Positions 21,656-37,394 of a stretch of DNA of 64,000 nt are shown one piece after another. The notes below the pieces were generated by a model. That model made no database searches. It was given only the letters and a program-made list of their open reading frames with translations, and was not told the DNA's origin. The DNA is from an uncultured Bacteroidota bacterium (GTDB lineage Bacteria; Bacteroidota; Bacteroidia; Bacteroidales; 4484-276), in the NCBI GenBank assembly GCA_903944895.1, contig CAJATL010000052.1, positions 1 through 64,000 on the forward strand, given 5' to 3'. The position numbers were made by a program, and so were the translations under genes. How positions within the stretch are numbered: position 1 is the stretch's first letter; each line of letters opens with the position of its first letter.

Positions 21656-24600
21656 ATGAAAGTCAAATACAGCGTTTCGCTTTTCTTAGTCATAATTCTA
21701 TCTCTGTCCGGCACTTTTGAGGCATATTCCCAAAACCTGACCGACACAGTTAACATCCCTCAAATAACCATCGAATCGCTTAACGGCTTTGGGCCTTACA
21801 CCATCGGCACTTCGCGCGATAATTATTTTATGGCTTACGACTTGCCGACAAATACATCAAGTGTCACTTTCAGGATGATTGACGAAAATGGCGACCAGAT
21901 AAACAGTTCCTCAACCACCGGGGGCGACAACCTGGAGTCGGCTTTCTGGGAATTTGAATCCGACACAATGAATTTTCCGCTATCGCCGCAGTTAAACGTC
22001 GAAGTGCATTATCAAACCGACAGTGTGGCCAATTATTACATTCCATACATTGTTTACTGCGACACTGTATTTTTTGAAGCTACCAAAGGCTGGGGGCCTT
22101 TTATTACGAACAATTACACACGGACCGATACTTCGTGGCATAACGTTGCCCAAATGCCAAATACTTTTAGTGTAAGAAACCTGCCACCGAGAACCGAAAA
22201 GGTAAAATTTACCATTTTTTCGGCAGATTCGGTTGCGATTGATTCATCTTTTACCATGGCGCCAACCGGCCAATATCTCGATTCGGCAAAATTTCTTGAA
22301 GTCAGGATGGATTTGCTGCCACTAAAAACCAGGTTTATCGAGGCAGCTTCGTTTTGCGCTGGCGGCCCTTCGGACGGCGTAATTCAAAATAAAGAGCTTA
22401 TTATCCTTCCTCAAACGCCAAAATTAGTATGCAAAACCGACCTGAACATTTACCACGATTCGATCCCACAATTTACACAAAACCAAACCGGTGGCCAGGC
22501 AATCCTGGTTGACACCAATAAATACGCTCAGATTCAGAATGGACCCGGTCTGATGCACGAAACCCTCTCGGGTACAAAATATGCCGGACCATATAGTTTT
22601 GATATTATCCAGGGACAATTTACCATTGAAGCCTGGGTACAATACAATGCCAAACTCTCCACACTTCCGCAGGGCGAAATGAATATAATGTCGGTTGATT
22701 CGCTCTGGAAAATTGGCCTGATAAAAGATGGATATGGAAATAACCTCTATTTTTATTCGCTGGCCGGTGGCATAGAAAACACCCTGGTAATGGCCGGCTT
22801 ACCTTCGATAACAAACAATAGCTGGCATCATATGGCCTACACCTTTAAATATATTCAGGATAAAGCGACATTTTCGGTTCATGTATTTTGGGATGGGAAC
22901 CTAATCAATCCTTCCCAGGTTTCGGTGGATGTTGAGGAATTCGATTACATTTTTCAGCATATTCCGTATCGCGATAATATGAAAACCAAACCTCTGATAC
23001 TTGGTAGTATTCAAAATGATGCGCCATCGGTTCGTATTATTCAGGCTATGGATGAAGTAAGAATCTGGAATTATGCCCGAAGCGCCCAGGAAATTAAAAG
23101 CAATTTCAAAAAACCTGTTCTTCAGGATTTAAGTCTGACAGGCTATTGGAACTTTGACGACCTCCGGAATCGCCTGAAAATTGTATCCGACGACAGCTAC
23201 ACCAACAACACCGGGACAATCGAGAATGGCGCCTGCTTTATTCCCGAGGCTATAGATATTCAGGATTTAAACGATACGATAATTTTTACATCAAGCAACA
23301 AACTCACCGATTCGATCAAATTTAGCTTTTACGATTTTAACAACAATGTGCTTTATTCAAAATTGCTGCATCCCTCAAGCAGTAAATGCACTTTAGCTTA
23401 TGATTTATCAACACTTTCGTACAAAGTAAGCCATTTAAAAACGCGTGAGTATTTTCCCGGGGTTGCCGACAGCGGGTTTGTAACAACCTACAATGTTTCG
23501 GTAACGCCGCCAATCCCGATAGCCACGCCCAAATACAACTGGAGTGCTTTTTATCAGAGCGATTATGAATACGACGAAATAATCAATTCGATTGATGTGG
23601 CGGGCTTACCTTCCGGTTCGTTCAAAATAGTTTGTGGCCTCAAAAGTGGCAATTCGTATTACGATACTCAAACGTTTACCCAAAACAGCGTTCCTTACCA
23701 ATACTCGCTTAACCTCAACGGCGCTGACAATTTTATACAGACGTCCCAAAAAATTTCCTGTCCCACCAGTGGCGAAATTTCCTTTTATTTCAACACTACT
23801 TCTAAAGATGGCGGGGTTTTATTATCATTTAGCCAAACAAAAAACGGTGTCGGCAGCACCCGTACAGAGCGGTTGTTCCTTTTGGAAAAAGATGGCTCTC
23901 TAAGATTTCAGGTCATGTCGGGATACGTTTTGTATGGCGAGCACGCTTACAACGACGGGCTATGGCACAATGTTACGGGGTCTTTTGGAGGCCTCTCAGC
24001 AGAGTTGTACATTGATGGCTCGTTGGTTGACCACAAAGCCATTCCCTATTTATCCGGCTACGATGGCTATTGGCTGGTTGGCAGGAATCACGCCAACAAA
24101 TCTGAAGAAATACGGGCACTGGCCGAATATTATAAAGGCTCACTGGCCGAAATTTATTTTTGGCGCTCCGACAAAAACCGGAGCGAAACATTGTACCGGC
24201 TTGATGACGGACAAGGTGTAACTGTTTTGGATTCGAAAGGGAGCAATCATGGAACTTTGAGCGGTAATTTGCAAAAATGGGTCAAGGTAAACCGAAACCT
24301 TTCGTACATCACCTGGAAAGGAAATATGATAAACAAACCTGCCGGTAATTACACTTTTTTTGTCGAGCTTTTTTATGAAGGCGGGCCGGCAAACGGGATT
24401 TATTATCCTGTTGGGAATTTTATTATCAAAGATCCTCTGCCTGGCTACACCTTTGACTATAATTTTAACCAGGGTATCGGTTATTTTAATGAAGGCGTTT
24501 TTCTTAATAATCTGATCAGTTTTAATACAGATTATACCCTGCAAGGAACAACAAATTGGAAGGAAGACTTCCTGCAGGGAGTTTTTCTGTCGCCTTCGCA

Positions 24601-27600
24601 CAATGTTATCAGTAAAAAGATTTTTACCTACACGCAAACAAACCAGTATTTTAACCTGCCTTTTGACATGGGTGATGCGGCTCCCGGCAGTTATTTCAGC
24701 TTCCAGAGTGGCTTTATTACCACCACTGGCGACACATCAGTTCAGCATACTTTTTCGGTGCCGGTTTATATCAACCAAATGATTGCGCCAACAGTTTCGG
24801 GTGATTATGGTCCGTTTTTACAGGCCATTGCCCCCGGTTGCATGGATCAGGAAAATACTTTTACCATCGCTACCGAAGAATTGAACGACATGAGCAAAGT
24901 GATTGGAAAGTTTTACGATAACACGGGGATTTTGGTGGCCCAACAAAACGCTGTAAAACTTAACGATACTACCTGGCACCTGACTTACGACATGGGGAAA
25001 CTCCCACCACCGCAGGTAAATCTGAAAATTGAATATTATCTCGGGCAAGACCCTGAACCGGCCCTCATCGAAGGCCCCTATCAGATTATCATACACAAAA
25101 CCCGCCCACGCTGGTTCGATTTTATGGCTGATACATGTTTTCACAATGTTCAGGAAAGTGGCGATGAGGTAACTTTTTCGTTATTAACTTATTTGAGCGA
25201 AGAAAACAGAACGGTTAAAACTTCGACATTTAAAGTCCCCAAAGGGGTGCCGATATTAGGCGAAACAAATATTACCACAGGCACTCCTACTGTTGAAGCT
25301 TATCTGAAATTCACCAAATCGGTAAATAAGCTCGAAATCGACGGACCCCCGGTATTCAGCAAAAGTTTATTTATTTTCGAATTTGGACCTCCCGAAATTG
25401 TTAATGCTGATTTTCAACTTGATGAAGAAAATTCGTACAATCTGGACGAAAACAACGACCTGTTTGCAACCCAAAACTTTGCTTCGGCACTCGACATGAC
25501 CTGGAGCATCAAAAGGCTTGTCGAAAATCCGGTTACAAAAATGATGGAACTCTACAAAGATTTGAAGATGAAAAACTGGAAGGATGCCAAACCCGTAGGT
25601 ATGACAGCCAATTTCACAGTAACACCTAATGTTGGCTATGCGTCACGGCTGCATTATTCGGTTGATACCATCAACGGTGGATGGGGTTCGGTGGGCAACC
25701 TTAAAATTGATGCAAATCCCGAACATGAGGAGGCCTACAAAAACAGCGCTTCATACCATTTTGTATATATGGGCATGGATTGCGAGTTATCGCTTGGTGT
25801 AACTTTTGGCGGTGGACTGGTTGATGTTTACGGCGCAGTAGCTCCCGGAATTTATGTTGGCATGGGTTCTTCATACATTGATATTCCTAAAAAAGACAAA
25901 CATTTTATTATTGCAGCCATGTTTCAGACCTATTACAGGGTATATTTAACGGCTTTGTGGAGCTGGTACGAGGTTAACCTCTTTGGGCCAAATCCAATTT
26001 GCCGGTTGAGCATTGGCGCCGATAATATGACCGACTGTTTTCCTCCTTTCGGGAAATCTGCAAATTTACCAATCGAAAATTTTAAGGGCGACCTTGCCTT
26101 GGGCAAAACTCTAAATCAAATGGCGCCGGTTGGTTGGTATCAGAAAATGCCGCTGCCGTTACCCCAACATTCGATCAGCATGAAAGATAAACACCGTTTG
26201 TTTACCTGGCTTGAGCCTGAAAAATCGTATGGCGAACGAAATCTTTGTTTAAGAACCATAAATCCGGCTACCGGCAAATTTGGTAAAACACAAGCTGTTT
26301 CGACCAATCAAAATGCCATTCAAAAGCCATCGGTTGAGATGATTAACGACAATATCGCCGTCAGCACCTGGATGCAAACCCGGCATACCCCCGAAACTTT
26401 TATGAATACAAAATCTGATGATGTTATCGAAACTTTAGCCCAATCGCAGGACATCTGGTATTCGGTTTTTGATGTTAACACCGGAACAACGCTTTTATCC
26501 GGCCCGATCGACGACAATACAAAATCAACAAACTCCGGAAGAGCCGAGGCAAACCCTGAAATCGTTGTACTTTCCGATAATCGCGCCCTGATTGTGTGGC
26601 AGGTTGCCGACTTCGCTCAAAACACTTCAGATATCTGGTATGCTTTTATCGAAAACGAAAACGGGCAATGGGCCGAAACTACTCCGCAGGTTCTGGCTGA
26701 GCCAGGCGGGGTTCAGACCAATTTAAAAGTGGCTTCACCCGCGGAAAATATTGCAGTAATTGTCTGGAAAAACTTCGACCAGTCGTCCTGGGAAGGCAAC
26801 CGGCTGATGACCTCGGTTTTTGCCAGCGAAACCTGGACAAGCCCGACCGAAATACTCGCTGCCGACACACTTCTTAATTATAATTATTTCGATCTGGATT
26901 TTGAAAATGGCCGTGGCGCAATGGTTTACACCACTTATACCAGCGACCAGTCCATCACCGAAAACGAAATTTTGTCCATCATAAAATGGGATTTCTCTTC
27001 AAATAGTTGGGATGTTGCATCCAACCGCCAGCTTTATTCCGAAACCGACGATCATATTCAGGTTCCGCGTTTGACCATCAGCAAAGATGGGAAAACTGCC
27101 GTTGGTTTTAAACTCGAAAACTTAGGTCTGCATACCGCCGATAAAAGGATTTCGCAGGTTGACCTGATGATTGGCGATATTTCGGATATTGGCGGCCAAT
27201 GGCAGCATTTTCCGGCTAATCCGCTGGTTTGCGATACCACCAAACAGGTTAACGATTTCGATCTTGCCTTTGCTGGTGGCGACACTTTGATGATTTTAAG
27301 CCACGAGTTTATCATGGCCGCCACCAATGTTCCGTACGAGCCTTTTAATGGGATAACTTTTGGCGATCCGGTGATGAATCTTGTTTTCAGGGCATTTAAA
27401 GTTTCGGAATCAGGCGAAGTTGAAGATGTGAACGAAAACCACTTTTTTGGGCTTACTGAAGTGCCGCATCCTTACAAAGACGTTGTACTTGAGCAGAATT
27501 ATCCAAACCCATGTTCGGATTTTACAAATCTCAAGTTTCATTTGCCCGATCAAAATCAGGTGCAGATTGAAATTTTTGACCTGATTGGCTCAAAAATCGG

Positions 27601-27739
27601 AACCATAGCCGAAGCACAACTCGATCCGGGAAGTTACGAACTGGCGTTGGATACTTCATCGCTGGAATCCGGGACTTACATCATCCGGCTTACTACCGAT
27701 CAAGTGGTAAAATCAATAAAAATGATGGTAAAAAAGTAG
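21656..27739 (+). CDS. Giant (2027 aa) secreted LamG-containing protein with T9SS type A sorting domain
   Basis: Signal peptide; LamG/concanavalin-like segments ('FTIEAWVQYN', 'GEISFYFNTTSKDGGVLLSF'); C-term 'VVLEQNYPNPCSDFTNLKFHLPDQNQVQIEIFDLIG...VKSIKMMVKK'. Confidence 0.88.
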   Translation: MKVKYSVSLFLVIILSLSGTFEAYSQNLTDTVNIPQITIESLNGFGPYTIGTSRDNYFMAYDLPTNTSSVTFRMIDENGDQINSSSTTGGDNLESAFWEFESDTMNFPLSPQLNVEVHYQTDSVANYYIPYIVYCDTVFFEATKGWGPFITNNYTRTDTSWHNVAQMPNTFSVRNLPPRTEKVKFTIFSADSVAIDSSFTMAPTGQYLDSAKFLEVRMDLLPLKTRFIEAASFCAGGPSDGVIQNKELIILPQTPKLVCKTDLNIYHDSIPQFTQNQTGGQAILVDTNKYAQIQNGPGLMHETLSGTKYAGPYSFDIIQGQFTIEAWVQYNAKLSTLPQGEMNIMSVDSLWKIGLIKDGYGNNLYFYSLAGGIENTLVMAGLPSITNNSWHHMAYTFKYIQDKATFSVHVFWDGNLINPSQVSVDVEEFDYIFQHIPYRDNMKTKPLILGSIQNDAPSVRIIQAMDEVRIWNYARSAQEIKSNFKKPVLQDLSLTGYWNFDDLRNRLKIVSDDSYTNNTGTIENGACFIPEAIDIQDLNDTIIFTSSNKLTDSIKFSFYDFNNNVLYSKLLHPSSSKCTLAYDLSTLSYKVSHLKTREYFPGVADSGFVTTYNVSVTPPIPIATPKYNWSAFYQSDYEYDEIINSIDVAGLPSGSFKIVCGLKSGNSYYDTQTFTQNSVPYQYSLNLNGADNFIQTSQKISCPTSGEISFYFNTTSKDGGVLLSFSQTKNGVGSTRTERLFLLEKDGSLRFQVMSGYVLYGEHAYNDGLWHNVTGSFGGLSAELYIDGSLVDHKAIPYLSGYDGYWLVGRNHANKSEEIRALAEYYKGSLAEIYFWRSDKNRSETLYRLDDGQGVTVLDSKGSNHGTLSGNLQKWVKVNRNLSYITWKGNMINKPAGNYTFFVELFYEGGPANGIYYPVGNFIIKDPLPGYTFDYNFNQGIGYFNEGVFLNNLISFNTDYTLQGTTNWKEDFLQGVFLSPSHNVISKKIFTYTQTNQYFNLPFDMGDAAPGSYFSFQSGFITTTGDTSVQHTFSVPVYINQMIAPTVSGDYGPFLQAIAPGCMDQENTFTIATEELNDMSKVIGKFYDNTGILVAQQNAVKLNDTTWHLTYDMGKLPPPQVNLKIEYYLGQDPEPALIEGPYQIIIHKTRPRWFDFMADTCFHNVQESGDEVTFSLLTYLSEENRTVKTSTFKVPKGVPILGETNITTGTPTVEAYLKFTKSVNKLEIDGPPVFSKSLFIFEFGPPEIVNADFQLDEENSYNLDENNDLFATQNFASALDMTWSIKRLVENPVTKMMELYKDLKMKNWKDAKPVGMTANFTVTPNVGYASRLHYSVDTINGGWGSVGNLKIDANPEHEEAYKNSASYHFVYMGMDCELSLGVTFGGGLVDVYGAVAPGIYVGMGSSYIDIPKKDKHFIIAAMFQTYYRVYLTALWSWYEVNLFGPNPICRLSIGADNMTDCFPPFGKSANLPIENFKGDLALGKTLNQMAPVGWYQKMPLPLPQHSISMKDKHRLFTWLEPEKSYGERNLCLRTINPATGKFGKTQAVSTNQNAIQKPSVEMINDNIAVSTWMQTRHTPETFMNTKSDDVIETLAQSQDIWYSVFDVNTGTTLLSGPIDDNTKSTNSGRAEANPEIVVLSDNRALIVWQVADFAQNTSDIWYAFIENENGQWAETTPQVLAEPGGVQTNLKVASPAENIAVIVWKNFDQSSWEGNRLMTSVFASETWTSPTEILAADTLLNYNYFDLDFENGRGAMVYTTYTSDQSITENEILSIIKWDFSSNSWDVASNRQLYSETDDHIQVPRLTISKDGKTAVGFKLENLGLHTADKRISQVDLMIGDISDIGGQWQHFPANPLVCDTTKQVNDFDLAFAGGDTLMILSHEFIMAATNVPYEPFNGITFGDPVMNLVFRAFKVSESGEVEDVNENHFFGLTEVPHPYKDVVLEQNYPNPCSDFTNLKFHLPDQNQVQIEIFDLIGSKIGTIAEAQLDPGSYELALDTSSLESGTYIIRLTTDQVVKSIKMMVKK

Positions 27740-27769: not shown

Positions 27770-30700
27770 ATGAAAAATATTTACACTTTGCCTCTGATAT
27801 TTCTTTTGGTTTTGGGATTTTTCCCAATAAAAAGCCTGGCCCAAACCAGCAATTTGCCGGGAAAAGCACTTCAATTCCAGGTAGCCGGCCAATATGTTTC
27901 CGGTACCGGGATAAACTCTGCCATCACAGCAATTACACTGGAATGTTGGGTTTATCACAATTCGATGCCCGGCCAGGTAGAAAGATACCTCACCATTGGC
28001 CCGGAGGTAGCCGTGTTGCGCCATGATGGTTCAATTTATGGCGGCCCCGGGCGGTTGCAATTTTATATCAAAAAAACAAATGGTAGTCTGGTTGGTGTGT
28101 GGGCTGATAATGTTCTTTCCGCAGGAGTTTGGATGAACGTTGCCGGAACTTATGACGGGACAAACTTTAAACTTTACCTCAACGGGGTTTTGGTTGCAAG
28201 TTCTTCGGCTGGCAGTGGATTGTACCCGCCAGATGGAGGTTTTAGTTTTAACAGCCCTGGAAGCGAAAATTTGGTTGGAAAATTAGATGAATTGCGCGTT
28301 TGGAATTATGCCCGCAGCGAGCAACAAATCCGGGAAAACATGCATTTAACCTTGTCAGGAGATGAACCCGGTTTGCTCAATTACTGGCAGTTAAACGAAG
28401 GTTCGGGACCCACGGCACACGATTATACCGGAAATTGCAACGGAACACTTTATAATTTGGGAAACGGAAACTGGACAAATTCCACAATCCCGTTGGGTGG
28501 TGGATTCAGCAATTCGCAAACTGTGAATACCACCGGAAATGTAACTTTTACCGGCACCGGATTTTCATCCGATTTTACGGCCTTATCTGCAACCGAAAAT
28601 ATCACGGTTTCACGGATAAATCTATCCCCAAACACCAAACCTTCTGATCCGTTTTATGCCGCCTGTTCGCAATATTGGGTTGTAAAAAACTTCGATAACC
28701 AGCCTTTTACCGCTGACCTTACATTTAATTTGAACGATGATTTGAACAGTTACAACGGCCTGAATCCGGGAAGCGTAAGACTTTTTACCCGATCTGAAAA
28801 TTCCGACGGTGACTGGACTTATGTTGAAAAAGCCGCCATCGTTGACACGGTCGCTAACACGGCTACTTTTACCGATCTGAGCACATTTGGCCAGTTTCTG
28901 GTTTTGCGGACCTATCCCGAAAATTATGCCGGCAATGCCCTCGAATTTGACGGAGTTGACGATTACACCGAGCTTTCGGATGCATCGGGATTTCAATACA
29001 ACGGCTCGTTTACCGTGGAAGCCTGGGTAAAAGCCGAAGTTATGGGAAGCGGGTTTCATTCCATCGCCGCCAAGGGCACCGAATGGGAATTGAAAATGTA
29101 TGAAGGAAGTTCGTTTATCATCATCGAATTTGGGGCAAACAACAACGCCATTTTTTCATTTAAAAATCTGAACACCAGTTTGGTTGTTGGGAAATGGCTG
29201 CACCTGTGCGGCGTGGTGAATCAAACTGCCGGACAAAAACACCTGATACTTTATGTTAACGGCGAGGCCGGCTCCTCGGTAAACCCGCCAGCTATAACGC
29301 CAACAGCCTCATTTATCCGGATAGGGTCGGGATTTAAAGGTAAAATTGATGAGGTACGTATTTGGCGTGAAGCCCGGACGCAGCAGCAAATCCGCGAAAA
29401 GATGCACCTCACCCCAACAGGCGCCGATAAAAACCTGGATGTCTGCCTTCAGTTTAACGAACCTTACGGAACCACCGCAAATGATGTGGCGGGAGGAAAC
29501 AATGGAACACTCACAAATATGAGTATCGGATGCTGGGTTTTATCCGGCGTTCCGGCCGGTGGCGGAGTCAGCCACACACAAACCGAAACCGGCGGCACTG
29601 TCAATTTCACCGGGACTGGTCTTTCGATGTTTTTCAATTCCCACGCCAGCGCATCCATCACCGTTTCGCGGATTGATGTAGCCCCAAATATCAACACTTC
29701 ATTGTTCGATTCGCAATATTGGATCATCAACCGTTTTGGCACCGGCACATTTAACGCAAATCTTACATTTACCGTTGCCGAAGATATTACTGCCGATGAT
29801 CAGGCTTCATCATCCGGAATTAAATTATACACCCGTCCAACCAACGACGACGCCAGTTGGATTTATGCGATTAATGCAGCTTCGGCGGATGCTTCCGGCA
29901 ATACTGCCACATTTAACAACCTTACCGGATTTAGCCAGTTAGCCGTTTGCAGAAGACTTCCGGCTGATAATTTTGCAGGAAATGCTTTGGATTTTCATCC
30001 TACAAATGATTACATTTCCGGCACTGGATTAAAAAGTTCGATGATTCAATTCACCCTCGAAGCCTGGGTTTATCATAATAATTTAACAACTGACGTACAG
30101 CAATATATTACGCTTGGACCGGATGTAGCGGGCATTAAATACAACGGCCAATCATCAGGTGGTGATACCTGGCTGAATTTTTTCATTAACACGAATAATT
30201 ATTCCGGTTATGCGGTCACTGCCGTAAATGTACTTTCCACCGGAAACTGGATGCACGTTGCCGGAAGCTACGATGGCGCCACAATGAATCTTTATCTTAA
30301 TGGTGAATTGGTAAAAACCATGGCGGCTTCGGAAAGGATAGACACGCTTGATGGTACTTTTATAATTAGCGGCACCGAAGCAATGGATGGGAAACTGGAT
30401 GAAATCCGCATCTGGAATTATGCCCGCGATATTGCTGATATCCGGGCCGATATGTATCGCACATTAGCAGGAACCGAAACGGGTCTGGTTTCTTACTGGC
30501 AGTTTAACGAGGGCAGCGGAATTGAGCCTAAAGATATTGTAGGTGGAAATAGTGGTACTTTTTATAATATGGATGCCTCCAACTGGACTATTTCAACAAT
30601 TCCGACACCTTACCAGAGCATCGCCGGGGGCAACTGGAGCAGCTCCTCAACCTGGGATGCCGGGCAGGGTGCGCCGGTTAAAAATTGGTCGAGGGTTCAG

Positions 30701-32149
30701 ATTGAAAATGATGTTGTTTTAGATGCCGGTAAAACCATGATTGATCTAACTGTTGATGCAGCGGCAAGCCTGGTTGTTGCTTCATCGACGCAACTCACAG
30801 TTACCGGAAATTTGCTGAATAATGCCGGCACCGGCGGTTTGGTGCTCCAATCGGATGCCACCGGAACAGCATCTCTTCTCCACGTTACAGCAAATGTAAA
30901 TGCGACCATACAAAGGTATATTACCGGTAATCCGTCCCTTACCGCCAATACTTATCATCTTGTTTCGGTTCCGCTTACGCCAGCCACCAATTCGACTTCA
31001 AACCTTTTTTTGGGAGCGTACCTTTACGATTTTGACGTGGCCGGTAATTCCTGGCATAGTCTGGGAACATCAACCACCACGGTACTCGACGAAACCAAAG
31101 GTTACATGATTTACGCACCAGAAAATAACCATACGTACACTTTTGCTGGACCTATGAATGTCGGGACTTTCGATCCGTTGGTAGTTTTTACAGGCGCAGG
31201 AAATAATCTGGTTCCAAACCCTTACCCAAGCGCCATTGATTGGGATGCCGGTGGCTGGACAAAAACCGGAATCGCCAACTCGGTTTATTTGTGGCCTTCG
31301 GGAGGTACCGGATATGTAACTTATGTTGACGGCGTGGTAATTCCCGAAGGTACGACCAATCCAAACATAATTCCTGCAGGCCAGTCGTTTATTGTAAAAG
31401 CCGTCAGCAGCCCTACATTCCGAATGACTGACGCGGTAAGGGTTCATAGTGGCAAGCCTTTCCTGAAATCCGGTGAAAACACTACCGACCTGCTCAGGAT
31501 AAAAGCCACTGCAAACGAAATGACCGACGAGGCTGTCATCCGCTTTAAAGATGCAGCCACTCCTTTCGCCGACCCAGATTATGATGCCTGGAAACTTTAT
31601 GGCACCGATGGCGCACCACAACTTTACACCTTGTCCGGCAACGGTGAAATGCTGGCCATCAACAGCCTGCCTTACCCGGAAACAATTTATACAGTTCCGC
31701 TTAATTTTGAGATGAATGCGGAGGCAACAGTTACTTTCACTTTTGAAAACATCAGCAGTTTTGAACCATCGCTCGGTATTTTTCTTAAAGATGAACTCAC
31801 TGGCCAAACCGTCAATCTCCGAAATAATCCTGCTTATACTTTTATTCACAAAACGGAAAATTCGCCAGATCGGTTTAAACTGGTTTTCGGTGGCATCATC
31901 GGAATTAACGAACCAACGTCAGATGCCGGAAAAATGTGGATTACAGGAAACACGCTTTTTATCAACACCACCGAAATGGCCGGACAGCAAGCTGTGATTG
32001 AAGTTTACAACTCCTCCGGCCAAAAGCTGCTGGCAAAAACGCTGGTTTTGGATGAAATCACAACTTTGGAGTTGAGTTTAAAAGGATTTGTGATTGTGAA
32101 ACTTACTTCGGGACAAAAGGTAATAACAACAAAAGGGATTTTAAACTAA
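27770..32149 (+). CDS. Secreted protein with three LamG domains, shared C-terminal module and T9SS-like tail
   Basis: Signal peptide; LamG motifs 'ITLECWVYHN', 'FTVEAWVKAE', 'FTLEAWVYHN'; C-terminal 'LVPNPYPSAIDWDAGGW ... VIVKLTSGQKVITTKGILN'. Confidence 0.87.
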   Translation: MKNIYTLPLIFLLVLGFFPIKSLAQTSNLPGKALQFQVAGQYVSGTGINSAITAITLECWVYHNSMPGQVERYLTIGPEVAVLRHDGSIYGGPGRLQFYIKKTNGSLVGVWADNVLSAGVWMNVAGTYDGTNFKLYLNGVLVASSSAGSGLYPPDGGFSFNSPGSENLVGKLDELRVWNYARSEQQIRENMHLTLSGDEPGLLNYWQLNEGSGPTAHDYTGNCNGTLYNLGNGNWTNSTIPLGGGFSNSQTVNTTGNVTFTGTGFSSDFTALSATENITVSRINLSPNTKPSDPFYAACSQYWVVKNFDNQPFTADLTFNLNDDLNSYNGLNPGSVRLFTRSENSDGDWTYVEKAAIVDTVANTATFTDLSTFGQFLVLRTYPENYAGNALEFDGVDDYTELSDASGFQYNGSFTVEAWVKAEVMGSGFHSIAAKGTEWELKMYEGSSFIIIEFGANNNAIFSFKNLNTSLVVGKWLHLCGVVNQTAGQKHLILYVNGEAGSSVNPPAITPTASFIRIGSGFKGKIDEVRIWREARTQQQIREKMHLTPTGADKNLDVCLQFNEPYGTTANDVAGGNNGTLTNMSIGCWVLSGVPAGGGVSHTQTETGGTVNFTGTGLSMFFNSHASASITVSRIDVAPNINTSLFDSQYWIINRFGTGTFNANLTFTVAEDITADDQASSSGIKLYTRPTNDDASWIYAINAASADASGNTATFNNLTGFSQLAVCRRLPADNFAGNALDFHPTNDYISGTGLKSSMIQFTLEAWVYHNNLTTDVQQYITLGPDVAGIKYNGQSSGGDTWLNFFINTNNYSGYAVTAVNVLSTGNWMHVAGSYDGATMNLYLNGELVKTMAASERIDTLDGTFIISGTEAMDGKLDEIRIWNYARDIADIRADMYRTLAGTETGLVSYWQFNEGSGIEPKDIVGGNSGTFYNMDASNWTISTIPTPYQSIAGGNWSSSSTWDAGQGAPVKNWSRVQIENDVVLDAGKTMIDLTVDAAASLVVASSTQLTVTGNLLNNAGTGGLVLQSDATGTASLLHVTANVNATIQRYITGNPSLTANTYHLVSVPLTPATNSTSNLFLGAYLYDFDVAGNSWHSLGTSTTTVLDETKGYMIYAPENNHTYTFAGPMNVGTFDPLVVFTGAGNNLVPNPYPSAIDWDAGGWTKTGIANSVYLWPSGGTGYVTYVDGVVIPEGTTNPNIIPAGQSFIVKAVSSPTFRMTDAVRVHSGKPFLKSGENTTDLLRIKATANEMTDEAVIRFKDAATPFADPDYDAWKLYGTDGAPQLYTLSGNGEMLAINSLPYPETIYTVPLNFEMNAEATVTFTFENISSFEPSLGIFLKDELTGQTVNLRNNPAYTFIHKTENSPDRFKLVFGGIIGINEPTSDAGKMWITGNTLFINTTEMAGQQAVIEVYNSSGQKLLAKTLVLDEITTLELSLKGFVIVKLTSGQKVITTKGILN

Positions 32150-32163
32150 GACCCCATCCCCGG

Positions 32164-32200
32164 CCCTTCCCCATCCCGATAGCTATCGGGAGGGGAAGGG
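32164..32200. other. Long imperfect hairpin between large ORF and microprotein ORF
   Basis: cccttccccatcccgatagctatcgggaggggaaggg. Confidence 0.75.
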
Positions 32201-32283
32201 AGCGAAAGTTCGTGGGATTTGGTCGGTTAATTTGAATCGAAGAATTTTTCACAAAACAAACCCAAATCCCAGGAGCGTTCCCT

Positions 32284-32307
32284 CCCCCTCTCTTTTTGGA
32301 GAGGGGG
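32284..32307. other. Second C-rich hairpin upstream of microprotein 1
   Basis: ccccctctc-ttttt-g-gagaggggg-type stem. Confidence 0.7.
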
Positions 32308-32350
32308 CCGGGGGGTGAGGCAGAAAAAATAAACAGACACCATTCAAACG

Positions 32351-32569
32351 ATGAAGAAAATTTTAATGCTTTCGATTGTACTGACGATTTCGGGGTTTTC
32401 ACTTTTGGCTCAAGCACCACCAAATCCTCCCGGTGATGCAGGTGGTAGCGGCGGCCCTGTGGGAGGCGGCGGCGCACCCATCGGCAGCGGGATAGTTTTG
32501 CTAATCACGCTGGCAGCGGGTTATGGCGGGAAGAAGGTTTTTGATGCAAGGAAGAAACTTGCCGAATAG
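32351..32569 (+). CDS. PIGSG-tail microprotein 1 (secreted Pro/Gly-rich with C-terminal TM and basic tail)
   Basis: 'MKKILMLSIVLTISGFSLLAQAPPNPPGDAGGSGGPVGGGGAPIGSGIVLLITLAAGYGGKKVFDARKKLAE'; paralog of 36851-37090. Confidence 0.85.
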   Translation: MKKILMLSIVLTISGFSLLAQAPPNPPGDAGGSGGPVGGGGAPIGSGIVLLITLAAGYGGKKVFDARKKLAE

Positions 32570-32624
32570 ACGTTTTTGCCAGGCTATGAAATTCGTTTGT
32601 ATTCCGAGTTATTACCAGGTCAAT

Positions 32625-32647
32625 GGGCGGCATTACAAATGCCGCCC
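32625..32647. terminator. Hairpin between microprotein 1 and convergent HU gene
   Basis: gggcggcatt-aca-aatgccgccc perfect 10-bp stem; no clear T-tract. Confidence 0.5.
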
Positions 32648-32697
32648 AGCCGGGGGCCGGCGCAGCACCTGACAGCGTCAATAAAAGCGTACCATTT

Positions 32698-33078
32698 TCA
32701 CCCCTTTCTCACCTCCACATTCTTAAGCTTCCTGGTAATATCCTTGTCAGCTCTGAACTGCATCTTTACCTTTTTTACACTGCGGAAGTTTACATCTTCT
32801 TCGTTTTCGTAAGAATCGCTGCCAAACGAAAGCGAAAATATCCCCAAAGGAGGCAGGTGAACCGTGTAATTCTCGGCAAGCAGGTTAGGTACTATTTCGG
32901 CAAGACTGTTCAGCGCCGACAACGCATCGCCGCTGCTCAGGCTCGAGCGTTCGGCAATCATCCGGGCAATCATTCTAACATCGGCTTTTTGCCGTTTGCA
33001 CGGAAAAGCAATGTACCTTGTTTTCTTTTCAGGATTCAGTCCGCCTTTTACAGGCGTAATTTTATAAAGTACAGGCAT
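32698..33078 (-). CDS. HU-like DNA-binding protein (Bacteroidota type)
   Basis: 'MPVLYKITPVKGGLNPEKKTRYIAFPCKRQKADVRMIARMIAERSSLSSGDALSALNSLAEIVPNLLAENYTVHLPPLGIFSLSF'. Confidence 0.88.
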   Translation of the reverse strand: MPVLYKITPVKGGLNPEKKTRYIAFPCKRQKADVRMIARMIAERSSLSSGDALSALNSLAEIVPNLLAENYTVHLPPLGIFSLSFGSDSYENEEDVNFRSVKKVKMQFRADKDITRKLKNVEVRKG

Positions 33079-33174
33079 AAGTTTATGTTTTTATTGTTAA
33101 AGCACTACAATTGTCATTACCTGTTAACCCATTCGTATGGAGAAACCAGTAATTACTACTTGCAAAGTTAGCTA

Positions 33175-33240
33175 TTTAATATATAGTAAACTAATGTTTA
33201 ATTTATAGTAAAAATAATTTAAACATATAGTAAAATAGAT
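33175..33240. repeat. Three ~22-bp direct repeats (TTTAAnnTATAGTAAA)
   Basis: tttaatatatagtaaactaatg / tttaatttatagtaaaaataa / tttaaacatatagtaaaataga. Confidence 0.8.
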
Positions 33241-33258
33241 TTTACCTTAAGGTAAAAT
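33239..33258. promoter_or_regulatory. 20-bp perfect palindrome ATTTTACCTTAAGGTAAAAT
   Basis: Read directly; abuts the TATAGTAAA repeat array upstream of the HU gene. Confidence 0.75.
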
Positions 33259-33478
33259 TACAACATTACTTGAGAGATTCGCCCAACTATAAAGTCGAAA
33301 AACCTGGAAGGTTTAAACGTTGACAGCGTCAAAATAAATTGAACAGTAAATGCCGCCCAGCCCGAGGCAAAGCCGGGAATTTTATTTACCACAATTAGTG
33401 TTGGTAAGTAAAAGAATTACATACATTTGTTAACTATTTTTATGAAATGAACAGTTACTACATTTAAAAACTCTAACA

Positions 33479-36400
33479 ATGAAAAAGATTCTAGCAATTA
33501 CATCAACGAAGCGAACCAGAATAATCAGCATCGCTGTGCTTTTTGTTTTAATGTCGGGTAGCGGGCTTTTTGCTGCCAACCAGGTAGTTACAACCAACAG
33601 CGATGCCGGTGCCGGTTCGCTTCGCCAGGCCATTGCCGATGTGAGCGATGGCGGAACCATCACCTTCAATCTCTCTGCCGGGAATGAAACCATTGTTATT
33701 CTGACCGAACTGCTGATTACCGGCAAAGGCGTTACCATCGACGGCTCCAATTCATGGGGAAGTCCCAATCAGGTTACCGTACAGGTTACAACACCGGGAA
33801 CTTCTCCCTACCGCGTATTTCATGAAATTGCAGATGGAAAAACCTCCTACATCAGCAATATGACTATTAAAGGAGGATACATTACGGGATCGGGCGGTTA
33901 CGGTGGTGGAATCTACCTCGAACAAGGAACCTTAAACCTCTCTCATGTAACAGTTTCCGATGCGCAGGCATATCAAGGCGGGGGCATTGCAATGGTTGCG
34001 CCGACAAGCTGCACCTTTGACTGGGTTACCGTCAGCAACTGTACGGGCACACTGGGTGGAGGGCTTTATTGTGGATCCGATAATAATCTTACCCTAAATA
34101 ACTGCCTGTTCACAGGAAATACCACCAGCGACCCGGTTCCTTCAAAATCGCCCAAATCATCCGGTGCTTACGGAGGCGGAATTTGCAATATAGGAACCAT
34201 GACAATTAATCAATGTGAAATCAGTGAAAATGTCGGTGCCGGCGCTTACTCGGTATATGGTATTGGTATCGCAAACCTGGGTGCAATAACGATTTCCGGT
34301 TCTGTGATTAAAAATAATAGTTATTCAGGTGACAAGGGTGCTATCGGGGGAGGTATTGTTGTTTACTCTGAGGATGCCAACGTGACATGCATCATCGAAA
34401 ATTCTACGATTAGCGGGAATAGTATAAATTCAACAACTAGTGCAGGAGTAATGGGTGCAGGCATTGGTTTTTTTAATGTAGATGTTACCGGGGCTATCAT
34501 TAATTGTACTGTTTCGGAAAATACTGCAACGGCGCCCTCCATGGCATTAGGGGGAGGCGTTTGTGTCTTGTTGGCCTCTGTCGCCATCTCAAACAGTACC
34601 ATCGCAAATAATGTTGCCTCGGAGGCCGGAGCAGGCATTTGCCAGGTTGCCGGAACCCTGTCGATAAAAAACACCATTATAGCCCAAAATTCAGATAACT
34701 CCACAAAGTTCGATTATAATGCCTATACCGCTTACGGACCTTGGACGCTGAACGACAATGGCAACAACATCGTGCAATACCAGAATGTGTCTGCTGATGC
34801 AGGAAACAGCTTCAACGCCACCACTGATTTTTTGTATAACACCAAATACAACGCTTCAGGAACAGCCTTTACCAATTGGACCAAAGGAGGCGATGCCAAC
34901 GGCGGAAGCCTGAACCTTGCCTACGCTGTGGCTTCCAATGGCGGCCCTACGCAAACGCTGGCCATCACCCCCGGCAGTATTGCCATCCATTCAGGCGCAT
35001 GGGATGATGCCGTTACCAAGGATCAGCGTGGCACGAACCGGCACGAGGGGACACCAGCCATCGGAGCCTTTGAACTCCGACCGGCGCCGGGCTACTTTTA
35101 TTCAATTGATCCTCCTCCAACCTGGGACTATGAAGGTAACTGGGAAGATGGAATTGTGCCGGGCGCCACGGATAATGTGTCAATATCGCCGAATGCTGCT
35201 TTTAATCCAAGGATTTACACCAATGTCGTTTGCAACGATCTGAACATTCCAGCCGGCATGAATGTTACTGTGTATCCCGGCTACAGCCTCACAGTGAATG
35301 GAACCTTGCAAAACAACGCCGGAATTTACGGGGTTAGAATTTACAGCACTGCATCAGGAACAGGCTCGTTGATCCACCATACCGCCAATGTGCAGGGTTT
35401 TGTAGCACGGTACCTCCCGGGAGCATCCCAATCCTGGCATTTTCTATCTTCGCCGGTGGCAGCGCAGGCCATCAGTCCTGATTTCGTGCAAGATCCCCCG
35501 ACCGATTACGATTTCTTTACCTGGTACGAGGCAGGAGACACCTGGGTAAATTTTAAAAATACAACTATAGCCCCGACCTGGGAAACGGCAAACTATGACA
35601 ATAACTTTGCAGCCGGCAAAGGTTACCTTGTTGAATATACCGGTACCGACCTTATCAAAACATTCTCCGGCAACCTGAATAGCGGACCGATAGCTTTCAA
35701 CCTTTCAAGAACAGGAACAGGCGCTTATGCAAGATATAATCTGGCAGGAAATCCCTATCCGTCGGCCATTGACTGGAAAGCTGCCAGCGGCTGGGACAGA
35801 ACAAATCTGGAACTGAATGGTGGTGGTTACGACATGAGCATCTGGAATGATGCCTTAAGCACCGGCAATTATGGCACTTTTAACAGCGCATCACTCAGCG
35901 GAACCGGAACAAACGGTGTGTCGCAATATATACAGGTTGGCCAGGGCTTTATGGTAAAAGCAATAGCGCCGGGAAAAGCTCCATTGTTACTTGGCATCCA
36001 AATGGATGATAGAGTAAGAGTACACAATACGCAGGCTTATCTCAAATCAACCGATGAAGTTGCCAACGTACTTCGCATGAAAGTTTCGGGGAATGTTAAT
36101 TCTTATTCCGATGAAATTGTCATTGAATTTGGCCATCCAACCGCCGATGGCGGTGCCGAAAAGATGTTCAGCTTTTATGAAACCGCGCCCAGTCTTTATA
36201 CCGTGAAGCCAGATGGAAATTATTCCATTGATTTCCGTGGAGAACCCGGTGCCGTTACCATCCCGCTTAGTTTTAAAGCAGGTGCTGATGGTGATTATAC
36301 GCTTACGGCCAGCCAGCTCGAATCGTTTGCATCATCCACCGATATTATGTTGGAAGATGTAAAACTGAATACCACACAAAACCTCATGCAAAACCCGGTT

Positions 36401-36721
36401 TACACCTTTTCCTCAACCAAAACCGACGATGGCGCACGTTTCCTGCTGCATTTTGGAGGCGCTTTCAGCATCAACGAAAATGCAAACGAACAACCGATTA
36501 ATGTTTATGCTTCGGGAAATACGGTTTACATTTCCAATACATCAGGAAGTGAGATGAAAGGTGAAGTGTTTATTTTCAATACCATCGGTCAAACCCTCAT
36601 GTACAAAAAACTCAGCGGTGAAAACCAGACCAGCATAAGCCTTCATTCCAATACCGGTTACTACCTTGTAAAAGTTGTAACCAACGATAATACTTATTCT
36701 ACAAAAGTTTTTGTAAAATAA
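33479..36721 (+). CDS. Secreted right-handed beta-helix protein with shared C-terminal module and T9SS-like tail
   Basis: 'GAGSLRQAIADVSDGGTITFNLS', repeated 'GGGIYLEQGTLNLSHVTVSDAQAYQGGGIAM' rungs; C-terminal 'LAGNPYPSAIDWKAASGW ... GYYLVKVVTNDNTYSTKVFVK'. Confidence 0.9.
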   Translation: MKKILAITSTKRTRIISIAVLFVLMSGSGLFAANQVVTTNSDAGAGSLRQAIADVSDGGTITFNLSAGNETIVILTELLITGKGVTIDGSNSWGSPNQVTVQVTTPGTSPYRVFHEIADGKTSYISNMTIKGGYITGSGGYGGGIYLEQGTLNLSHVTVSDAQAYQGGGIAMVAPTSCTFDWVTVSNCTGTLGGGLYCGSDNNLTLNNCLFTGNTTSDPVPSKSPKSSGAYGGGICNIGTMTINQCEISENVGAGAYSVYGIGIANLGAITISGSVIKNNSYSGDKGAIGGGIVVYSEDANVTCIIENSTISGNSINSTTSAGVMGAGIGFFNVDVTGAIINCTVSENTATAPSMALGGGVCVLLASVAISNSTIANNVASEAGAGICQVAGTLSIKNTIIAQNSDNSTKFDYNAYTAYGPWTLNDNGNNIVQYQNVSADAGNSFNATTDFLYNTKYNASGTAFTNWTKGGDANGGSLNLAYAVASNGGPTQTLAITPGSIAIHSGAWDDAVTKDQRGTNRHEGTPAIGAFELRPAPGYFYSIDPPPTWDYEGNWEDGIVPGATDNVSISPNAAFNPRIYTNVVCNDLNIPAGMNVTVYPGYSLTVNGTLQNNAGIYGVRIYSTASGTGSLIHHTANVQGFVARYLPGASQSWHFLSSPVAAQAISPDFVQDPPTDYDFFTWYEAGDTWVNFKNTTIAPTWETANYDNNFAAGKGYLVEYTGTDLIKTFSGNLNSGPIAFNLSRTGTGAYARYNLAGNPYPSAIDWKAASGWDRTNLELNGGGYDMSIWNDALSTGNYGTFNSASLSGTGTNGVSQYIQVGQGFMVKAIAPGKAPLLLGIQMDDRVRVHNTQAYLKSTDEVANVLRMKVSGNVNSYSDEIVIEFGHPTADGGAEKMFSFYETAPSLYTVKPDGNYSIDFRGEPGAVTIPLSFKAGADGDYTLTASQLESFASSTDIMLEDVKLNTTQNLMQNPVYTFSSTKTDDGARFLLHFGGAFSINENANEQPINVYASGNTVYISNTSGSEMKGEVFIFNTIGQTLMYKKLSGENQTSISLHSNTGYYLVKVVTNDNTYSTKVFVK

Positions 36722-36734
36722 AACCCGCCCCACC

Positions 36735-36792
36735 CCCAACCCCTCCCCCAAAAAGGGAGGGGCGCAAGTTCCTTCTTTGTGGAGGGGTTGGG
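36735..36792. other. Nested C-rich hairpin between beta-helix ORF and microprotein 2
   Basis: Outer arms cccaacccct / aggggttggg, inner cccctccc / gggagggg. Confidence 0.65.
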
Positions 36793-36850
36793 TAGGGAAA
36801 TTAAAATCAACAAAATTTTGAAATTCAGAAATCATTAAATATTCAGAAAT

Positions 36851-37090
36851 ATGAAAAATGTACTTAAAAAACAGATGTTTGCCTTGATTTTACTCGGTTT
36901 CATGGCCATTATCCAAATCAGCCAGGCACAGGCGCCACCTCCACCACCAGGCACTAAAGGTGGCGAAACCAACGGTGTTCCCGGTGGCGGCGGCGCACCC
37001 ATTGGCAGCGGGATAGTTTTGTTAATCACGCTGGCGGCAGGATATGGCGGGAAGAAGGTTTTTGATGCAAGGAAAAGGCTGGCGGTGTAG
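36851..37090 (+). CDS. PIGSG-tail microprotein 2
   Basis: '...AQAPPPPPGTKGGETNGVPGGGGAPIGSGIVLLITLAAGYGGKKVFDARKRLAV'; 3' ~85 nt near-identical to 32351-32569. Confidence 0.85.
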   Translation: MKNVLKKQMFALILLGFMAIIQISQAQAPPPPPGTKGGETNGVPGGGGAPIGSGIVLLITLAAGYGGKKVFDARKRLAV

Positions 37091-37196
37091 CCCAGGCAAA
37101 GTTTCAGCAGAAACCTCAGAGATAATAATTAAGCTTCGGGGTTTTTGCTGTTTCCTGGAGGCTTTAAAAAAAATGAATGAGTTCGGTTAAAAAACT

Positions 37197-37337
37197 GAAA
37201 ACTACCAGGCTTTCAATCTGTCAGGTTTAACTCCTGGCCAACCCATCCAAATTGATTTTACAGGACACACAGGATTTTATCTGGTGAAAGTAAAAACCGA
37301 AAACATCACAAAGTCTGAAAAAATTTACATCAGATAA
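37197..37337 (+). pseudogene. Orphan T9SS C-terminal sorting-domain remnant
   Basis: Start-less frame 'ENYQAFNLSGLTPGQPIQIDFTGHTGFYLVKVKTENITKSEKIYIR*'. Confidence 0.65.
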
Positions 37338-37394
37338 GTCTTCACTAACGCTAAAAGAAAAGCGAAAACCGTAACAATTTAAAATTCCGGAAAG

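Follow-up and report, generated by a model that had tools for sequence, protein, structure and literature searches.

A stretch of 64,000 nt from an uncultured Bacteroidales bacterium (contig CAJATL010000052.1, positions 1 to 64,000; hereafter the window) contains two copies of a two-gene cassette, in each of which the gene of a large adhesin-like protein is followed by the gene of a microprotein of 72 or 79 residues. The two-gene cassettes proved to be real, and the pairing recurs across the phylum. We favour, with a probability of about 0.6, the reading that each cassette encodes a RemA/RemZ-type adhesin of the type IX secretion system (T9SS) and a dedicated exosortase-substrate microprotein, which the exosortase would cut and which would reach the envelope as the adhesin's partner.

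Two cassettes with a common adhesin module

An earlier, sequence-only reading of this DNA had described two large open reading frames (ORFs) and two microprotein ORFs, and all four are present, on the plus strand. Cargo a (27770-32149) is a predicted secreted protein of 1459 residues whose passenger comprises three LamG domains according to Pfam. The passenger of cargo b (33479-36721; 1080 residues) matched the NCBIfam choice-of-anchor Q model, consistent with a probable beta-helix. These unrelated passengers are joined to a common C-terminal module, also as first described: the last ~460 residues of the two cargos, including the NPYPSAIDW motif, are homologous (35% identity, E = 7.7e-49). Module a spans 30761-32146 and module b 35306-36718. 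Both modules end in a T9SS-like tail, scoring 23.4 and 27.3 bits, respectively, against the model of the T9SS type A C-terminal domain (CTD; TIGR04183), for which the cut-off is 23.

A module profile built from 24 sequences matched the C-terminal ends of Flavobacterium johnsoniae RemZ (E = 4e-31) and RemA (E = 1.2e-29) over 457 positions, near its full length. In the AlphaFold model of module a, the mean predicted local distance difference test score (pLDDT) was 86. Its ~75 terminal residues, which correspond to the CTD of cargo a (31922-32146, limits approximate), superposed on the RemZ CTD (8gl8_D) with a TM-score of 0.71, by target length, and a root-mean-square deviation of 2.5. The RemZ type A CTD has been seen in the T9SS translocon (PMC10994853). 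When the whole module was searched against the PDB, only the terminal CTD gave a good match, and all other hits were poor. Because the profile matches the C-termini of RemZ and RemA and the CTD fold agrees, we assign the cargos, from sequence and predicted structure, to the type A surface proteins of T9SS, in which exchangeable passengers precede a C-terminal region like that of RemA/RemZ.

Microprotein a (32351-32569; 72 residues) has a predicted signal peptide (32351-32410) with cleavage between A and Q, a Pro/Gly linker and a PIGSG tail. Microprotein b (36851-37090; 79 residues) is built in the same way, with its signal peptide at 36851-36928. The position of the A and Q residues agrees with the Bacteroidetes Q-rule, by which signal peptidase I exposes a glutamine (PMC5837995). 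At the DNA level, the 3' halves of the two genes are nearly identical and the 5' halves dissimilar.

Pairing of adhesin and microprotein genes

Searches of the window's own genome returned 18 module matches and 17 microprotein matches; two of the latter (contigs C48 and C32) are fragments or decayed copies. Thirteen of the 17 microproteins come immediately after a module gene in the same orientation, 23-222 nt from the module match. With 13 pairs adjacent in the same order among so many matches, the cassette is not a product of chance. The pairing is also selective, since none of the best-scoring 150 T9SS tails in this genome precedes a microprotein.

The same arrangement was found in other genomes. 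In 12 relatives, 30 of 43 microproteins follow a module gene, and several of the remainder are at contig ends. We also searched for loci from the module alone. A diverse module alignment gave no usable pattern; repeated with four close rows, the search yielded 23 independent loci, titled Lentimicrobium or uncultured Bacteroidales/Bacteroidetes, in 20 of which a microprotein comes next. Among other classes, 34 same-strand genes lie directly upstream of a PID microprotein, of which 30 bear a T9SS type A tail and 25 match the module profile; some of these paired cargos have no detectable module. In one Flavobacterium-like genome (genus by family resemblance), the gene of an 84-residue protein ending in GLPIDDHIWILLMLALSLGVYKVKLEKK comes straight after a RemA-like gene, with a gap of zero (L190/L195), and a second T9SS-tailed gene is followed by another PID protein (L208). 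Overall, the pairing of adhesin genes with microprotein genes is strong in both directions. The adjacency foreseen by the sequence-only reading was thus upheld within the genome and beyond it, and the microproteins of other genomes are not mostly separated from module genes.

Microprotein tails and exosortases

Fifteen of the microproteins from the window's genome could be aligned. They have an invariant GGGA...G.G core and a conserved YG.K; the signal peptide and tail are conserved and the linker is variable. The motif is mostly P-[IV]-G-x-G, and the P-E-P motif of PEP-CTERM is not present. A Pfam search of the microproteins returned no match. Read directly from the sequences, the proteins have the PID-CTERM architecture: they are short, with a signal peptide and a C-terminal tail of motif, hydrophobic stretch and basic end. 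Against the PID_CTERM model (NF046080; curated cut-off, 26 bits), the tails of microprotein a (residues 43-62; 32477-32536) and microprotein b (residues 50-69; 36998-37057) scored 19.5 bits (E = 6e-4) and 19.1 bits (E = 9e-4), respectively. Three paralogues in the same genome (C329, C413 and C250) scored at or above the cut-off. The proposal of a PID-CTERM-like sorting tail is supported; because the window's own copies score below the cut-off while the paralogues pass, we filed them as divergent relatives of PID-CTERM rather than as members.

Silent changes in the microprotein genes exceed amino-acid changes, for example 0.49 versus 0.06 in the N-terminal half of L163/L164, and the genes therefore look translated and under constraint. 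Some PID microprotein ORFs (L122, L125, L126 and L127) have a putative N-terminal extension, a CxxC/CxxC segment ahead of the first hydrophobic stretch. At another locus (L043, 1-560), the contig starts with the end of a further microprotein tail (KVFDFRKRKLAE, then a stop codon) about 300 nt ahead of a complete microprotein, which suggests tandem microproteins.

To relate the microproteins to a processing enzyme, we used a phylum sample of 198 genomes, 38 with and 160 without PID_CTERM. An EpsH-type protein was found in 34 of the 38 genomes with PID_CTERM versus 36 of the 160 without (p = 1.5e-14, uncorrected for relatedness). Half of these 36 belong to a single family, in which the exosortase is mostly a longer one. 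In the window's taxonomic order, 16 of the 17 genomes that have the microprotein also have an XrtX-like protein, versus 5 of the 23 that lack it (Fisher p = 4.7e-6; 0.011 once the window's family is collapsed to one). In four genera, the exosortase gene lies beside the microprotein gene. At L145, the microprotein gene precedes those of XrtX and the XrtX-associated protein; at L146, the genes of cargo, microprotein and exosortase follow one another, with a 4-nt overlap; at L144, the sequence of genes is cargo, microprotein, XrtY-like; and at L106, a locus from the window's own taxonomic order, it is microprotein then XrtX-like. The window's genome encodes two exosortases, one of them (L143) amid genes resembling those of polysaccharide synthesis. 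They scored 64.7 and 51.6 bits against TIGR04178 (cut-off, 23). Their catalytic residues are intact: Cys, Asn, Arg and His are invariant across 11 aligned exosortases, both of these copies included. A dedicated processing gene, which the sequence-only reading had proposed to look for, is thus present in this genome and stands within the operon in others. Rhombosortase was considered as the processing enzyme too, but the gene neighbourhoods favoured exosortases.

It has been proposed that exosortases cut close to the motif of their substrate, that the helix stays behind in the inner membrane, and that the newly formed C-terminus is attached to a compound; the authors of one summary of this model speculate that the compound may resemble the linking sugar of T9SS (PMC7468200). 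We infer cleavage, conjugation, surface delivery and physical partnership of the microprotein along similar lines. The adhesin would pass the outer membrane via T9SS, using its type A tail. The microprotein would be exported by Sec, trimmed by signal peptidase I between A and Q, and kept in the inner membrane by its PID/PIG tail. A short XrtX/XrtY-like exosortase could then cut near the P-I-D/G motif and hand the mature product to a carrier, either a lipid or a glycan; this product would be a peptide rich in Pro and Gly, some 10-30 residues long. The carrier would take this peptide to the envelope or to surface polysaccharide, and the peptide would act there as the adhesin's partner.

The adhesin-microprotein pairs across Bacteroidota suggest that two surface-attachment systems cooperate. 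A broader proposal, which we hold tentatively and at somewhat less than even odds, is that the short exosortases of Bacteroidota (XrtX, XrtY and probably XrtF) have their missing substrates in the PID/PIG microproteins. The exosortase at the inner membrane and T9SS at the cell surface would then both act on one shared adhesin complex, a two-sortase assembly encoded by a two-gene cassette. A microprotein gene right behind a RemA-type T9SS adhesin gene provides a concrete connection between two sorting systems so far studied apart, and offers a recognisable genetic signature for surface adhesins of uncultured Bacteroidota.

Alternative explanations and known systems

Several observations weigh against exosortase processing of a dedicated adhesin partner. 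The tails of both window microproteins, besides their low scores, have G where D is expected. The two exosortases of this genome do not adjoin the cassettes, and they scored 92.7 and 75.5 bits against the exosortase X model (NF046081), under its cut-off of 170. At L145, an opposite-strand gene separates the microprotein from the upstream T9SS gene. Co-folding of a tethered module and microprotein, with the stop codons of the gap modelled as Q, gave low confidence (pLDDT 55) and was uninformative. PID microproteins stand alone at L105 and at several Flavobacterium loci. Finally, the pairing is not obligate: roughly every second module gene in relatives lacks a microprotein neighbour, as do several Flavobacterium-like RemA/RemZ-like genes.

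These points leave room for other explanations. The microprotein peptide, whether processed by an exosortase or not, may itself bind the adhesin module as a surface anchor or structural subunit. This is a narrower form of the explanation we favour, and the pairing indeed tracks the module and not the passenger in this genome and its relatives, and phylum-wide in the same 25 of 34 cases. We nevertheless think it rather unlikely, given that co-folding lent it no support, that some paired cargos of other classes lack a detectable module, and that the RemA/RemZ-like proteins of several Flavobacterium-like genomes do without such a neighbour. Alternatively, the microprotein could remain unprocessed, as a small inner-membrane protein that serves T9SS cargo as assembly factor, chaperone or docking helix, its co-occurrence with exosortases reflecting shared lineage. 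A linker that varies between a conserved signal peptide and tail would suit such a role, the CxxC/CxxC variants (L125-L127) would fit a two-helix hairpin, and dedicated partners are known for type B T9SS cargos, namely the PorP/SprF shuttles (PMC12618676). This explanation is unlikely in view of the adjoining exosortase genes in four genera, the strong co-occurrence and a tail architecture that is that of PEP-CTERM-type signals.

Adjacency could also arise if a two-gene unit had merely been duplicated, with no functional tie between its genes. The many paralogous cassettes in one genome and the repeat-rich intergenic DNA common to three module genes are what duplication would leave behind. However, the gene order is kept across numerous families, and also in other classes, despite near-saturated silent sites, and the protein is constrained; we disfavour this explanation and regard it as quite improbable. 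Least probable of all, to the point of being hardly credible, is that an intergenic hairpin controls how much adhesin is made per microprotein, as the sequence-only reading had supposed. Three GC-rich stem-loops do exist in the window, with no strand assigned, and the predicted stems of hairpin 1 (32164-32200) and hairpin 3 (36735-36792) are strong, folding better than all 200 shuffles, whereas hairpin 2 (32284-32307) is unremarkable (z = -1.6). They are not a common feature of cassettes: most have an intergenic gap of about 4-130 nt and no hairpin. The palindromic core, CCCGATAGCTATCGGG, occurs 108 times in this genome and not at all in the control, the whole element lies behind only three module genes, and no terminator-like T run follows any of the three hairpins. 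Given the absence from most cassettes, the core copy number and the missing T run, we reject the hairpin as a functional part of the cassette; it is a dispersed repeat, which we judge to lie outside the system.

Three further features flank the cassettes. A gene for a 2027-residue LamG protein with a canonical T9SS tail (21656-27739) ends 30 nt upstream of cargo a, lacks an accompanying microprotein and may belong to the same operon. An HU-family DNA-binding protein (Pfam HU-HIG; 32698-33078) is encoded on the opposite, minus strand between the two cassettes. Directly past cassette b, at 37188-37338, is a decayed T9SS-like tail (ending in FTGHTGFYLVKVKTENITKSEKIYIR and a stop codon), probably the leftover of another cargo gene.

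The cassettes combine elements of several known systems. Their cargos are homologous end to end, over the C-terminal ~460 residues, with RemA and RemZ, the T9SS type A gliding adhesins of F. johnsoniae. They differ in their passengers (LamG, beta-helix) and in the paired microprotein, and the likeness is one of sequence and predicted fold. The linkage of a cargo gene to a dedicated partner gene recalls the T9SS type B cargos and their PorP/SprF genes; there, by contrast, the partner gene encodes a shuttle in the outer membrane that serves type B tails, whereas here a microprotein follows type A cargos.

On the microprotein side, the closest system is PID-CTERM (NF046080) with exosortases X and Y (NF046081 and NF046083) and the XrtX-associated protein (NF046082). 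Common to both are a microprotein with a signal peptide, short linker, P-I-x-G-G tail, short hydrophobic stretch and basic end, and an exosortase in the same genomes, at times in the same gene cluster. The window differs in its PIGSG tails and in the sub-cut-off scores of microproteins and exosortases. The NCBI accessions of the four models are consecutive, which suggests that the curators had already grouped them. Our literature search found no paper describing PID-CTERM, XrtX or the pairing of a microprotein with a T9SS adhesin; PID-CTERM and XrtX are known as NCBI models, and the adhesin link was in no paper found. The PEP-CTERM/EpsH systems resemble the present one in tail architecture and in the pairing of many substrates with one exosortase. 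They differ in that our microproteins lack the PEP motif and that PID substrates, being microproteins, have almost no mature domain.

The remaining comparison is with XrtF of F. johnsoniae. XrtF (Fjoh_1448) and Fjoh_1449 are needed for surface colonisation and biofilm formation; an xrtF deletion has defects resembling those seen in porU, porV and porZ mutants of T9SS attachment, and according to the authors the substrates of XrtF are yet to be found (PMC10936215). XrtF is a short exosortase, like those tied to PID microproteins. It belongs to another exosortase family, however, and most PID-like microproteins found in Flavobacterium-like genomes are solitary; in three of these genomes, one such solitary microprotein is kept beside apparent riboflavin synthase-like and pdxA-like genes (L197, L204 and L206). 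By analogy, microproteins of the PID kind are plausible XrtF substrates, and those encoded behind RemA-type T9SS adhesins are concrete candidate substrates for exosortases of this sort.

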